A DNA stretch of 64,000 nt. Source: a virus. Below are positions 3,904-8,431 of the stretch, in pieces. The position numbers and the translations under genes are program-made. Position 1 is the first letter of the stretch, and the number at the start of each line of letters is the position of its first letter. The notes under the pieces are model-generated. The model was not told the origin of the DNA and made no database searches. It saw only the letters and a program-made list of their open reading frames with translations. The stretch spans positions 1-64,000 of the IMG/VR virus record IMGVR_UViG_3300020419_000009; one strand, written 5' to 3'.

Positions 3904-6438
3904 TTACCCATGTGCGTTATTGTTTAACGCCTTCACAGCTTTTGTGTTTTTCTGTGTTTCTGCAATAAGTCTCTCAACAGCACTATTACTTATGCCTCCT
4001 CCTGCAAAGGCGCCTTCCGTACTGGTATTATCTGCTGTTCTCATTTCTTTTCTAATTTTGGAGCCTGTACTTGCATCATTATCCTTCTCTATAAGTGAAG
4101 TTGGATCAGGGCCAATTGAACCTTGTAAACTGCCTGCTCCACTATTTGAAGAAGAAAATAAATTCGAAACAGCTCCAATTCCCTTTTTTACCCAATCCGG
4201 AGTAATACTCTGCAATAAAGCACTCCAATCAATATCAAAAAGTGATGCAAATGAATCCCATAATTTTTGCATTGATTTTACTAGGGAGTCTTTGAGGTCT
4301 ACAAAGTAGCTTTTAACGTTTTCCCAATCAAAATACGCTGTTACACCGGCCACAATACCTGCAACAATTCTTGCCCATGGATTTAAATTGGTGAACAATG
4401 CTACAAAGGCACCACCTAACACGGTAGCTATTTCACCCCATGGTATAGCATCCATTAGCTTGTCCCAGCCAATTTTTACTGCGTTTGTAACTTTCTGTAT
4501 TATCGTATCCAATAGTGTACCGTCTTCAAACATCTGTACAAGGTTGTCCCAAAAAGGAATCAAAGTGTTATTAAAGAAGTTTTCTGCTTTGGTCATTGTT
4601 TCGTTTACAAACTTTGTTACCTTATCCCACATTTGCTCAAAATCGCCTCCTGGTGCAAAAAACTCTTTGACGTTTTTAATTCCTTCTTTAAGATCTTGAA
4701 TTAATCCTGCCCAATCTATTTCACCCACAGCTCCAAATATTTCTTTGGTATCATTGTAAAACTTTTTAAATTTGTCTGATAAGCCAGCCCAATCAACGCT
4801 TTCGAACCAGCCTATTATATCTTTCATTCCATCCTTAAATATGTTCCAATACTTTGTTGTTCCTTCTGACCATTCTTGTAATTTTTTTGTCCAGTCAGTT
4901 TTCATAAAGTAGTCATATGTATCACCAGCCCAATTTTTGAGTTTTTCCCAACCTTTTATTAACATATCTGAATTCATAATTTCATCATATGTTTTCTTCA
5001 GCATAGGCATTACTTTTTGTTCGAACATTACTAACAGTTCATCAAACATTTTTCCTGCTTCTTCCGTAGTGGGGAGAAATTTTTCAAAAGCATCTGCTAA
5101 TTTGTCTAGTATTCCACTGTCTAGCAAGAACACTTTAAATTTTGCCGCCAAGGATTCTATTGTTCTATTAAATTCTGTTGCTCTTTCTGTTAGTGAGTCT
5201 CTAGCTTTTTGTTCTCTATTAATAAACCCGCCGTCTACATTTTGTAAGGATTTCAATGCACCTGCTTGTGTAAATGCTTCGTACAACTGATTACCACTGC
5301 CTCTAAGAGCATCTAATTGGGCGGCTGTCATTTTATCTGCTTTATCGTTTACTTCCTTTGTAACCTGTACCAAGAAGTTATTTGCCTGTTCTTCTGACAT
5401 ATCACCAAAGTTCTTTGCCTGTGCTCTAAAAGTATCACTTGAGAACATTAATGATCTTGTCAATTCATCTGTAGGAACTCCGTCTGCAATGTCAATTAAT
5501 GAGCCTTGTACTGCTGTAAACTCTTTAGGTAACAACTGTAAGTTTTTAGTTAATGCGGAAGTACCGTCAGCCATTTGTTTTTGTATTCTTATGTCTCTGG
5601 CCATCATCTTCTGTTGTTCTTCAACATCTTTTCGACTTTTACCTGTAATTTTAGCAATTCTGTCTAATTCTTTTGAATAATTAATAGTTCCATTAATTAA
5701 TTCTTGTTGAGTCATATTCTGTCTTCTACCATACATGGTTTGTAAGTCGCTGTATGCTATTAGGTTATCATTCAATTCTTCTGTAGTAAAACCCATTGCC
5801 ATGAGTCTTGTACCTGCATCACTGTATCTTAATTCCTTACTAAATCTTGCAAAGTTCTTAGCACCATCTCCAACTGATGAACCAAACTGTCTTAAAACTA
5901 AACCGTCGCTATTAATAACTTTTGCAAGTGCTTCTGTTGCCATTGAAGCCTCTGCCGCCGCTCTAGTAATACCAAACATGTTATTACCAAAGGAAGCACC
6001 AACTGATGTTAAATCTCTAAACTGATCAACCTGTTCATCTAGTATACCACCTATCTGTCCTAGTGCTGGTCCTATTAAAGGAAAGTTGGAAAAGAATCCA
6101 CGCATGGATTGATCGCCGGATAATAATGTATTTGCAAAGTTGGGTACTGCTCCAACAACACTCATTATTGCACTTAATAGTAAATTAAATGCTCCTGATA
6201 CTACTCCACCTGCCGCTTTTCCTAATCCTGATATTTCTTCGGCCGCTTCAGCGGAAGCAGATCCTACTGCCGCTATGTTTTTGGCTGATTCTGAGGATAC
6301 TAGTCCTCTACCACTAGCTGGATTGAGTGGACTTGCTGGTCCTCCCAATATTTTAACCAAACTTCTTAAAGTGGCTTCTGATGCCGCATTTTCGGCTGTA
6401 ACTTCGCCAATGCCGGGTATGTCAATTCTTACTGCCAT
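3904..6438 (-). CDS. Tail tape measure protein (gp29-equivalent)
   Basis: 844 residues, starting MAVRIDIPGIGEVTAENAAS. The protein is long, helical and repetitive, with Trp-rich amphipathic segments between residues 450 and 700 (repeats of the type W-x2-L-x2-W-x2-G and D-W-A-G-L). Hydrophobic stretches lie near residues 80-110 (FNLLLSAIMSVVGAVPNF) and near 685-715 (LGGAFVALFTNL, then ARIVAGIVAGVTAYF). Length, helical character and membrane-like stretches fit a tape measure, which sets tail length and is threaded through the tail tube. It lies next to, but divergent from, the gp26/gp51-like chaperone that would coat it. No catalytic domain is visible. A large internal virion protein of another type is the main alternative. 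Confidence 0.65.
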   Translation of the reverse strand: MAVRIDIPGIGEVTAENAASEATLRSLVKILGGPASPLNPASGRGLVSSESAKNIAAVGSASAEAAEEISGLGKAAGGVVSGAFNLLLSAIMSVVGAVPNFANTLLSGDQSMRGFFSNFPLIGPALGQIGGILDEQVDQFRDLTSVGASFGNNMFGITRAAAEASMATEALAKVINSDGLVLRQFGSSVGDGAKNFARFSKELRYSDAGTRLMAMGFTTEELNDNLIAYSDLQTMYGRRQNMTQQELINGTINYSKELDRIAKITGKSRKDVEEQQKMMARDIRIQKQMADGTSALTKNLQLLPKEFTAVQGSLIDIADGVPTDELTRSLMFSSDTFRAQAKNFGDMSEEQANNFLVQVTKEVNDKADKMTAAQLDALRGSGNQLYEAFTQAGALKSLQNVDGGFINREQKARDSLTERATEFNRTIESLAAKFKVFLLDSGILDKLADAFEKFLPTTEEAGKMFDELLVMFEQKVMPMLKKTYDEIMNSDMLIKGWEKLKNWAGDTYDYFMKTDWTKKLQEWSEGTTKYWNIFKDGMKDIIGWFESVDWAGLSDKFKKFYNDTKEIFGAVGEIDWAGLIQDLKEGIKNVKEFFAPGGDFEQMWDKVTKFVNETMTKAENFFNNTLIPFWDNLVQMFEDGTLLDTIIQKVTNAVKIGWDKLMDAIPWGEIATVLGGAFVALFTNLNPWARIVAGIVAGVTAYFDWENVKSYFVDLKDSLVKSMQKLWDSFASLFDIDWSALLQSITPDWVKKGIGAVSNLFSSSNSGAGSLQGSIGPDPTSLIEKDNDASTGSKIRKEMRTADNTSTEGAFAGGGISNSAVERLIAETQKNTKAVKALNNNAHG

Positions 6439-6465: not shown

Positions 6466-6473
6466 TATAAATA
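6466..6473 (+). promoter_or_regulatory. T4-type late promoter, TATAAATA
   Basis: An exact match to the T4 late -10 octamer on the plus strand, 42 bases before the ATG of the gp26-like gene at 6516, which is preceded by an AGGAG site. It lies in the only gap between the divergent tape-measure and gp26 genes. Confidence 0.75.
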
Positions 6474-6515: not shown

Positions 6516-7439
6516 ATGGTAGATAATAATATGAGTCAAAGTACAATGATACAAGGTATTCCTAGTCCAGCACCAAAACAAGCTGGTAATCCACTAGCGA
6601 AACACCTAAGACAACCTAAAATCTACATCAAATTGCCTAGCGGAGGAAACTATTGGCCAAAAGGTGCATTAGAAATTTCCGAAAACGGTGAATATCCTGT
6701 TTATGCAATGAACGCCAAGGATGAAATTACTTTCAAAACACCTGACGCATTGTTAAACGGACAAGCAACTGTTGATGTGATTCAGAGTTGTATGCCCAAC
6801 GTTAAGGATGCCTGGCAGGCTCCTTCGATTGACATAGACGTTATGTTGGTAGCAATAAGAATGGCCAGTTTTGGTCAGATGCTAGACATGTCAGGAAAGA
6901 TACCTGGAACGGAAATTACTAAAGATTTTCAACTTAACTTACAAACAGTGTTAGACAATTACTATGTCCAACAGTTTGAAGATACATTTAAAATTGACGG
7001 ATTTACTGTTCAGATGAAACCAGTGAGTTATATGACTATGACTCAGCAGACTGTCAAGGCTTTTGAGGAACAGAGAATATTTTCAATTGTTAATGACGAC
7101 GATACAAATCCGGCAGAAAAGTTAGCTAGATTTCAAAAGGCTTTTAAAAATCTCACAGACATGAATGTCGGTGTTATAGTTGACAGCGTTATAGCTATTC
7201 AACCAGATGGCGAAAGTGATGCTGTTACCAACAAGATATTCATTAAGGAATTTATTGAAGGCACTGAAGCTTCGATTTATAATCAAATTGCTGATCACAT
7301 TACAAAGATGAGAACAAGGTTTACTCAACAACCTATAACTGTTAATGCTACAGAAGAAGAGATCAAAAATGGTGCTCCAAAAACTTTTGAAATGCCTATT
7401 GTTTTTGATCAATCCAATTTTTTCGGCTCCGGATCTTAA
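6516..7439 (+). CDS. 26: Baseplate hub/tail assembly chaperone gp26-like
   Basis: 307 residues when read in frame 0. Conserved blocks of the T4 gp26-like family are visible: IKLPSGGNYWP near residue 33, then GEYPVYAMNAKDEITFKTPD, LLNGQATVDVIQSCMP and SIDIDVMLVAIRMASFGQ. In T4, gp26 is needed for hub assembly; related proteins act as tail assembly chaperones on the tape measure. Start ATG 6516 has a good AGGAG site, and a TATAAATA late box lies upstream. Near the 3' end, at TTT TTC (7419-7424), a slippery heptamer followed by a hairpin suggests that some ribosomes shift to frame -1 and make a 379-residue fusion. Confidence 0.85.
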   Translation: MVDNNMSQSTMIQGIPSPAPKQAGNPLAKHLRQPKIYIKLPSGGNYWPKGALEISENGEYPVYAMNAKDEITFKTPDALLNGQATVDVIQSCMPNVKDAWQAPSIDIDVMLVAIRMASFGQMLDMSGKIPGTEITKDFQLNLQTVLDNYYVQQFEDTFKIDGFTVQMKPVSYMTMTQQTVKAFEEQRIFSIVNDDDTNPAEKLARFQKAFKNLTDMNVGVIVDSVIAIQPDGESDAVTNKIFIKEFIEGTEASIYNQIADHITKMRTRFTQQPITVNATEEEIKNGAPKTFEMPIVFDQSNFFGSGS

Positions 7440-7478
7440 CGAAACCACTCGACGAAATCCTAGCCGAGGTTAAGGTCC
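7418..7478 (+). promoter_or_regulatory. Programmed -1 frameshift signal (slippery site plus hairpin)
   Basis: The heptamer T TTT TTC (7418-7424) lies in the zero frame as AAT TTT TTC and fits X-XXY-YYZ. After a 6-base spacer comes a 10-bp stem, 7431-7440 paired with 7469-7478 (GGATCTTAAC with GTTAAGGTCC, one G-U pair). A second 4-bp helix lies inside it (CTCG 7448-7451 with CGAG 7465-7468). The zero-frame stop TAA (7437-7439) lies inside the stem. A -1 slip continues with CGG at 7424 into an open frame ending at 7654. Confidence 0.85.
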
Positions 7479-7654
7479 TAGAAGGAGAGGTCAAGCAAGT
7501 AAAAGATACACTTTACAAGTTGTGTTGGTACATGCGTGGAAGTTTATCTGTTTCAGAAGCATATTGCTTGACCAATGAAGATATTGAAATCATGAATCAA
7601 ATCATTACCGATAACTTGGAAACAGCTAAAAAGACTGGACAGCCTTTCTTTTAA
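7424..7654 (+). CDS. gp51-like extension of gp26, reached by -1 frameshift
   Basis: This 76-codon frame has no ATG, GTG or TTG start in its first third, and the frame is closed by a stop a few codons upstream, so independent initiation at full length is unlikely. Read from the slippery site it encodes a helical stretch (EILAEVKVLEGEVKQVKDTL), then WYMRGSLSVSEAYCL and a C-terminal ETAKKTGQPFF. An M-R-G-x-x-x-x-x-E-A block with a terminal K-x-x-G-x-P-F-F is typical of the short gp51/tail-chaperone partner in T4-like phages. The product would be a gp26-gp51 fusion of 379 residues, parallel to the G/GT chaperones of lambda. The last four bases overlap the convergent gene on the minus strand. Confidence 0.75.
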   Translation, partial: RLRILTKPLDEILAEVKVLEGEVKQVKDTLYKLCWYMRGSLSVSEAYCLTNEDIEIMNQIITDNLETAKKTGQPFF

Positions 7655-8403
7655 TCAGCGTTGAGTTTTGCAGACTTAGGTGTAATAACCTTATAGCCTT
7701 GTTTCTGTAGAAGTGTTACTGCTTTTGCAATTTCAGGATTTACTCCAACCTTGTTTAACTTAGCAGAAGATTGTGTATTAGCAACTGCGTCAGCATCGCC
7801 ATATTGGCTTTTTTGCAGTTTACCACCTAGTTGTGATTGGAATCCTTTACGTACAAATCCTTTAAGAACCTGTTTAACTTGGCTTTTGCTTAAATTAGCA
7901 TCAGCTTCGTTAATTCTAGATTCACCATACATGCTGTTAGCTAATGGCAGTTCCATTTGTTTATCTGGAGTAAGATCTGACTTCTTAGGAGCTAGTTTAT
8001 CTTTAACTTTTTTAGCCGCTCCAACTACCGCACTTGCTCCGGACTTAGCCGCGCCAGCGGCCGCCTTAACGCCTTTTTTAGCAGATTTGTAACCCTTTTT
8101 CATGCCACGTGTCATACCTTGTTCTTGATTAATAAAACGCATTACTTCGGAAGGACTACCAGCAAACCCTTTTGCCGCAATATAGTTAGCAAGACCTTTT
8201 GCTGTCATACCTTGGTTTTTTGGATCCTGCTTTGTTACAGCATAAAATTCTTTGTATAGGTCGTTAACTTCTTGATCTATTTCAACATCCAGCTGTGCCG
8301 CTTTGCCCATAGCTGTGTTCTTACCTAGTGTACGCTTTGCATAACGCAAAGGACCTTCATTGGTCTTTTTCTTGGTTTCTGTTAAAATATCTAAAACTTG
8401 CAT
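7651..8403 (-). CDS. Lys/Ala-rich putative capsid-internal protein with gp21-type cleavage signal
   Basis: 250 residues. The N-terminus MQVLDILTE is followed by a basic stretch; an L-T-E at residues 7-9 fits the L/I-x-E rule of the gp21 prohead protease, as in the short capsid-targeting sequences of T4 internal proteins. A second I-N-E occurs near residue 165. Residues of about 105-145 are Lys/Ala-rich with repeats of the GAAKxxxxxxxGAAKK kind, resembling histone H1-like DNA-binding tails. No enzymatic motif is seen. A TATAAATA late box lies 21 bases upstream on the minus strand, consistent with late expression. The role as a packaged and possibly ejected protein is inference from the signal and composition. 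Confidence 0.5.
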   Translation of the reverse strand: MQVLDILTETKKKTNEGPLRYAKRTLGKNTAMGKAAQLDVEIDQEVNDLYKEFYAVTKQDPKNQGMTAKGLANYIAAKGFAGSPSEVMRFINQEQGMTRGMKKGYKSAKKGVKAAAGAAKSGASAVVGAAKKVKDKLAPKKSDLTPDKQMELPLANSMYGESRINEADANLSKSQVKQVLKGFVRKGFQSQLGGKLQKSQYGDADAVANTQSSAKLNKVGVNPEIAKAVTLLQKQGYKVITPKSAKLNAD

Positions 8404-8423: not shown

Positions 8424-8431
8424 TATTTATA
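8424..8431 (-). promoter_or_regulatory. T4-type late promoter, TATAAATA (minus strand)
   Basis: The plus strand reads TATTTATA, giving an exact TATAAATA on the minus strand, 21 bases upstream of the ATG at 8403 of the putative internal head protein. Confidence 0.7.

Follow-up and report, generated by a model that had tools for sequence, protein, structure and literature searches.

The window analysed here, a stretch of 64,000 nucleotides of viral DNA, carries a gp26-like gene with a slippery heptamer close to the end of its zero-frame ORF, an inverted repeat just downstream, and a further reading frame that is open in the -1 register. A divergent tape-measure-like gene adjoins it (Table 1).

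Table 1. Features at the gp26-like locus (positions are those of the window).
Feature	Positions	Strand	Basis or proposed role
Tape-measure-like gene, 844 aa, divergent	3904..6438	-	phrog_4200, gene order
T4 late-promoter-like box TATAAATA, 43 nt ahead of the start of the gp26-like ORF	6466..6473	+	sequence match
gp26-like zero-frame ORF, 307 aa	6516..7439	+	short form, proposed G/TAC-N equivalent
Slippery heptamer T TTT TTC	7418..7424	+	sequence; in phase in relatives
-1 frame extension, 76 codons plus stop	7424..7654	+	proposed T part, equivalent of the gp51 C-terminal tail
5' arm of downstream stem, GGATCTTAAC, holding the zero-frame stop	7431..7440	+	10 of 10 pairs with 7469-7478
Zero-frame stop TAA	7437..7439	+	read from the sequence
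3' arm of downstream stem, GTTAAGGTCC	7469..7478	+	pairs with 7431-7440

The junction reads AAT TTT TTC GGC TCC GGA TCT TAA, in X_XXY_YYZ phase with the ORF at 6516-7439. A spacer of 6 nt (7425-7430) separates the heptamer from the stem, one of whose 10 pairs is G-U. The -1 frame runs as FFRLRILTK... up to the TAA at 7652-7654, and its first 34 codons are devoid of ATG, GTG and TTG; the protein joined from 6516-7423 and 7424-7654, the predicted long form, has 379 amino acids. The heptamer near the 3' end of a gp26-family ORF, the 10-bp stem after six bases, the zero-frame stop inside its 5' arm, the -1 frame open for 76 codons without a start of its own, and the resulting pair of 307 and 379 residues had been read from the same sequence in an earlier note, and every one of these elements was recovered as described there. 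In the predicted proteins, TFEMPIVFDQSNFFR would be the diagnostic transframe tryptic peptide and TFEMPIVFDQSNFFGSGS the C-terminal peptide of the zero frame.

The TATAAATA box may act as a promoter, judging by its position; the motif shows no enrichment within the window. A second copy is found at 8424-8431 on the minus strand, upstream of a minus-strand gene of 250 aa. The stop codon of the extension (7652-7654) overlaps tail-to-tail with that of the minus-strand gene at 7651-8403, the two sharing TTAA, although this packing is tight only if the extension is real. Within the window alone, the signal is unremarkable: TTTTTTC occurs 40 times in the 64 kb against 37.7 expected, and an 83-nt segment of the window folds like its shuffles (z = -0.01). 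The proof that the signal exceeds chance is comparative.

The zero-frame protein belongs to the T4 baseplate family PF12322 (T4_baseplate; E 1.8e-9, 38.1 bits, above the curated cut-off of 24.5) and matches phrog_150 (E 4e-13), being the only phrog_150 match in the 99.4-kb contig. An AlphaFold model of the short form (pLDDT 82.7) matches viral T4-like baseplate hub assembly proteins in BFVD, and profile searches of solved structures gave nothing significant. Matches of the same model outside the T4 group include proteins of Bacillus phage SP-15, Siphoviridae sp. ctYh54 and Ralstonia phage RSF1, most of them unannotated.

Relatives were collected in two large sets. A nucleotide search of the first 25 kb of the window against phages found no match, and the 307-aa domain as a query found no relatives among viral contigs, so the extension peptide was used instead; this gave 80 loci, 79 of them readable at the junction, which are referred to below as the window clade. 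A second set of 80 cyanophage-like contigs was found with a peptide starting past the slippery site. Because both sets were retrieved by extension peptides, neither was selected on the slippery site. The heptamer is invariant and in phase in all 79 readable window-clade relatives, where the zero-frame stop follows 3 nt (in most) or 12 nt after it and the -1 frame comprises 78 codons. All 80 cyanophage-like contigs have T TTT TTC/T/A in phase: 77 carry T TTT TTC, and the other three T TTT TTA or T TTT TTT (for example, the in-frame string in contig L176 is T TTT TTA). The same holds for 13 isolates examined, phiM12 being left out of the statistics as a repeat of the phiM7 sequence. Agrobacterium phage Atu_ph07 and Sinorhizobium phage Phosso match the extension in the -1 frame (tblastn), and their junctions, like those of PA5oct and 121Q, read T TTT TTC. 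With the phrog_150 profile, P-SSM2, S-PM2 and the Pelagibacter phage HTVC008M each give a match split in two, of which the latter part lies in the -1 frame; the junction is T TTT TTC in the first two phages and T TTT TTT in HTVC008M. Junctions in phiW-14, KVP40 and DLP6 are T TTT TTC, and those in phiM7, phiM12, Cr30 and pf16 are T TTT TTT.

The bases of the heptamer are kept despite synonymous options, as NNT for S, N, H, D, T or A followed by TTT and TTC, TTT or TTA. In window-clade genes TTC makes up about 35% of Phe codons, and T is the last base in about 63% of the preceding codon class; by these frequencies only some 14% of sequences would be expected to read NNT TTT TTC, an illustrative figure to which no p-value is attached since related sequences are non-independent. 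Loss of the slippery site among relatives, which the earlier note had named as evidence against frameshifting, was found in none of these sets. The slippery site, its phase and their conservation through the T4 superfamily are thus established by the comparison of sequences.

The extension is likewise established as an open frame under selection. Between the window and one of its relatives (L001), the downstream region differs by 20 synonymous and 22 non-synonymous changes when read in the -1 frame, against 0 and 44 in frame 0, and the same pattern of synonymous bias, which the other frames do not show, appeared in all 9 pairs tested; judging from these substitutions, the -1 frame is under purifying selection. 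Residues F1, F2, R3, W37, R40, G41 and P76 of the extension are invariant among 30 relatives. The extension alone has no Pfam match and no significant PHROG match. Its likeness to the gp51 C-terminus, proposed in the earlier note, is weak when the window-clade extension is taken by itself, both against T4-type gp51 (E 0.04) and against a pooled profile of cyanophage, other and T4 tails (E 0.001); the assignment stands on position and on the full-length alignment of the window long form to the cyanophage long form, which runs across the junction (E 5e-9). The cyanophage tail alone aligns with the gp51 tail (E 3e-10), and the cyanophage long form with T4-type gp51 over 240 columns (E 2e-16).

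Taken together, and with a probability of roughly 0.9, the window gene encodes tail-assembly chaperones of the G/GT type (TAC-N/TAC-NC) that would be expressed by -1 programmed ribosomal frameshifting; the slip in vivo, its rate, the stimulation by the stem and the binding to the tape measure protein are parts of this reading that we infer. The reading of the earlier note, in which a -1 frameshift adds a gp51-type C-terminus to a gp26-type domain much as in lambda G/GT, is the one that best accounts for the comparative data. In the proposed mechanism, one mRNA from the gene at 6516-7654 would give two chaperones. The majority of ribosomes would terminate at 7437-7439 and release the 307-aa short form, the gp26-like equivalent of G/TAC-N. 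A fraction of the ribosomes, when tRNA-Phe occupies the P and A sites over UUU UUC, would slip back by one base on U UUU UUC, and in the window lineage the stem-loop at 7431-7478 would slow them. Slipped ribosomes would then read 76 codons to make the 379-aa long form, the putative equivalent of GT/TAC-NC, with a tail resembling the C-terminus of T4 gp51. Most likely, the two forms bind the product of the adjacent tape measure gene and promote assembly of the tail tube, and neither stays in the virion.

The neighbouring gene fits this function. Part of the 844-aa protein matches phrog_4200 (tail length tape measure; E 3e-7), and no Pfam family reaches its cut-off for this protein. There is also a weak match to phrog_14121, a virion structural protein of jumbo phages. 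The order of the tape-measure-like gene is common to PA5oct, 121Q, Phosso and the window, in HTVC008M the downstream gene bears the annotation of a putative tail tape measure and has matches to many families of that kind, and phiM7 and pf16 have tape-measure-like genes downstream. The 844-aa protein is thus the probable client of the chaperone. A short and a long form predicted from one gene that adjoins a tape measure gene are the mark of the G/GT type and are found here, in an orientation unlike that in lambda; by analogy, the pair most likely acts as lambda G/GT does. The HK97 tail assembly chaperone (2OB9) was the top PDB match of a cyanophage-like model (probability 0.72, E 0.85) and ranked 15th for the window model (E 2.4), neither match being significant.

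The alternative that survives best accepts the frameshift and regards the products as structural subunits of the baseplate hub rather than as transient chaperones of the tape measure. T4 gp26 is indeed annotated as baseplate hub, and some genetics places it in the hub (PMC3004832). The same source, however, lists gp26 and gp51 as hub assembly chaperones and describes gp51 as required yet absent from the particle (PMC3004832). Most structural genes nearby in the PA5oct record bear a note on virion mass spectrometry, which the gp26-family gene lacks, papers of later date refer to the T4-like genes as tail assembly chaperones (PMC10885494; PMC12846349), and expression in two forms beside a tape measure gene is a hallmark of such chaperones. 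A structural role of the products is for these reasons improbable, though it is the rival most worth keeping in mind.

A further alternative takes the -1 frame for a small gene in its own right, reached by termination-reinitiation or through a start codon of its own. Public cyanophage records annotate gp51 in this way, and 26 of 62 distinct cyanophage-like sequences have a -1-frame ATG no more than 12 codons from the heptamer. Against this, neither ATG, GTG nor TTG occurs within the first 12 codons of the -1 frame in the window, PA5oct and HTVC008M, nor in 20 of 32 distinct window-clade and 18 of 62 distinct cyanophage-like sequences. Conservation of the tail begins at the first codon past FF (the FFR is invariant), a separate gene would have no need for T TTT TTC, and in T4, Aeromonas and Acinetobacter phages and in one Campylobacter protein a gp26 domain carries this tail as an in-frame fusion. 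Reinitiation was rejected on this comparative evidence of start codons and selection, and a separate gene in general is very unlikely.

The sequences around the heptamer differ among lineages. The exact stem of the window is paired in 100 of 100 cells in 10 distinct close relatives, including one double change from G-C to A-U. Other relatives, such as L021 and L027, keep the 5' arm with a nearer pairing partner, and a third group within the window clade has no clear stem. The 10-bp stem as a general feature was accordingly rejected: it is kept only in close relatives, others having a different hairpin or none. Taken over the whole window clade, downstream folding is weak (mean z -0.63 at 40 nt and -1.15 at 60 nt), and as several members have no clear stem, either a low rate or stimulators of another kind have to be assumed for them. 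In the cyanophage-like and isolate sets, the mean folding z of the 40 nt past the heptamer is -2.2, whereas control offsets give about 0 to -0.5; the cyanophage-like hairpins vary in sequence and register among subgroups. Moreover, 35 of 62 distinct cyanophage-like sequences have an SD-like GAGG upstream, its end 10 nt from the heptamer, and the Glu codon concerned is GAG rather than the alternative in a ratio of 35:11, against 179:496 elsewhere in these sequences; no GAGG-type upstream motif was found in the window clade. The earlier note had named heptamer and stem together as the signal to be sought in relatives; the former proved universal and the latter lineage-specific. From these alignments, the heptamer appears as the constant element and the stimulator as one that varies by lineage.

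The same anatomy bears on transcriptional slippage, in which mixed frames would arise from polymerase slipping on the T6 run. The site is a homopolymer, and runs of seven or more T are present in HTVC008M, phiM7, Cr30 and pf16. Most sites, however, have six T only, and the run never changes its phase; the cyanophage-like set also conserves the position of the stop, the hairpin and the SD-like element. These features agree with slippage of the ribosome and are not expected for polymerase slippage, and this origin of the second frame is very unlikely, judging from sequence. Nothing beyond the change of frame itself speaks for a sequencing error or for a decaying gene posing as a frameshift. This explanation is practically out of the question and already refuted by conservation: the same architecture recurs in 79 contigs of the window clade, each sequenced independently, in 80 cyanophage-like ones and in 13 isolates, and purifying selection acts on the -1 frame.

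With frameshifting as the preferred reading, the two separate genes of T4 can be placed. T4 gp26 and gp51 both match PF12322 over their full length, and the C-terminus of gp26 reads GLKEFFELL where the cyanophage genes read GLQSFF and would slip. The alignments establish the two as paralogues: gp51 is a gp26-like domain with the C-terminal tail fused to it in frame. The label of a gp51-like extension in the earlier note needs correction on this point, gp51 as a whole being a full-length paralogue of gp26 and not the extension alone. In the tree, T4 gp26 groups with gp51 (90/85), the short protein of Campylobacter phage CP220 with its long one (95/91), and the window with Atu_ph07, Phosso, 121Q and PA5oct (100/100), single frameshifted copies being found elsewhere; two long branches leave the Campylobacter part and Aeromonas gp26 unsure. 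CP220 (L123, L126) has two distant gp26-family genes, a short one and one with the tail in frame and without slippery site. This topology suggests that the frameshift gene was split by duplication at least twice, in the T4 pair and in the Campylobacter pair. We are inclined, with some reserve, to regard the frameshift from gp26 to the gp51 tail as ancestral throughout the T4 superfamily, with jumbo phages, cyanophages and KVP40 included; on this view it was lost independently in T4-type and in Campylobacter phages, where the gene was duplicated into a short and a fused long copy.

In the literature, a 2016 review describes the G-T frameshift as widely conserved in long-tailed phages, T4 excepted (PMC5009743). 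Tail assembly chaperones of T4-like phages are the subject of Vladimirov, Gautam and Davidson (2022, Virology 566:9-15), as represented in the papers that cite it, PMC10885494 (2024) and PMC12846349 (2025). According to these citations, some T4-like phages have separate short and long genes, the long one being a fusion (PMC10885494, citing Vladimirov et al., 2022), and poly-T stretches are known frameshift signals in the TAC-N genes of T4-like phages (PMC12846349, citing Vladimirov et al., 2022). The notion that the idea was unpublished was dropped in view of these two papers: as far as their citations convey it, the concept is largely published, and the window locus is a well-supported new example. 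The new clade, the extension to jumbo phages, the anatomy of the signal and the reading of two duplications may be novel, judged on open-licence PMC text. Over most of the T4 superfamily sampled, the G-T rule holds, the exceptions being T4 and the Campylobacter phages with their duplicate genes.

Among known systems, the nearest are the TAC-N/TAC-NC proteins of T4-like phages, which belong to the same family as the window protein (PF12322/phrog_150); compared with the published ones, as far as the citing papers present them, the present comparison adds an uncultured clade allied to Atu_ph07 and Phosso, jumbo phages and a lineage-specific stem. The gp26/gp51 pair of cyanophages (P-SSM2 and S-PM2; phrog_150/phrog_634) has the same heptamer, a stop 3 nt past it and a -1 tail, while it differs from the window in a shorter tail of about 60 aa, an upstream SD-like element, a compact hairpin and a tape measure gene that lies downstream on the same strand. 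The pair is annotated as two genes. In public records, the -1 tail is given as a separate gene for gp51 or hub assembly catalyst at L103:3218-3391, L105:4191-4364, L104:4367-4504 and L114:4010-4171; as the annotated starts lie 3' of the slip site, the long protein is missing from those records, and the gp51 "hub assembly catalyst" of the inspected cyanophage records is most likely just the tail of a frameshift product. Lambda gpG/gpGT resembles the window in having one gene with a -1 slip near its 3' end, a short and a long form and an adjacent tape measure gene. Its slippery site is G GGA AAG instead of T TTT TTC, the window protein is of family PF12322 unlike that of lambda, and the tape measure gene is downstream in lambda and divergent in the window. 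The -1 frameshift in E. coli dnaX, a gene whose product is unrelated, shares with the window a heptamer followed by a stem-loop and with the cyanophage versions an SD-like element about 10 nt upstream; of the two dnaX products, it is the shorter that arises by frameshifting.
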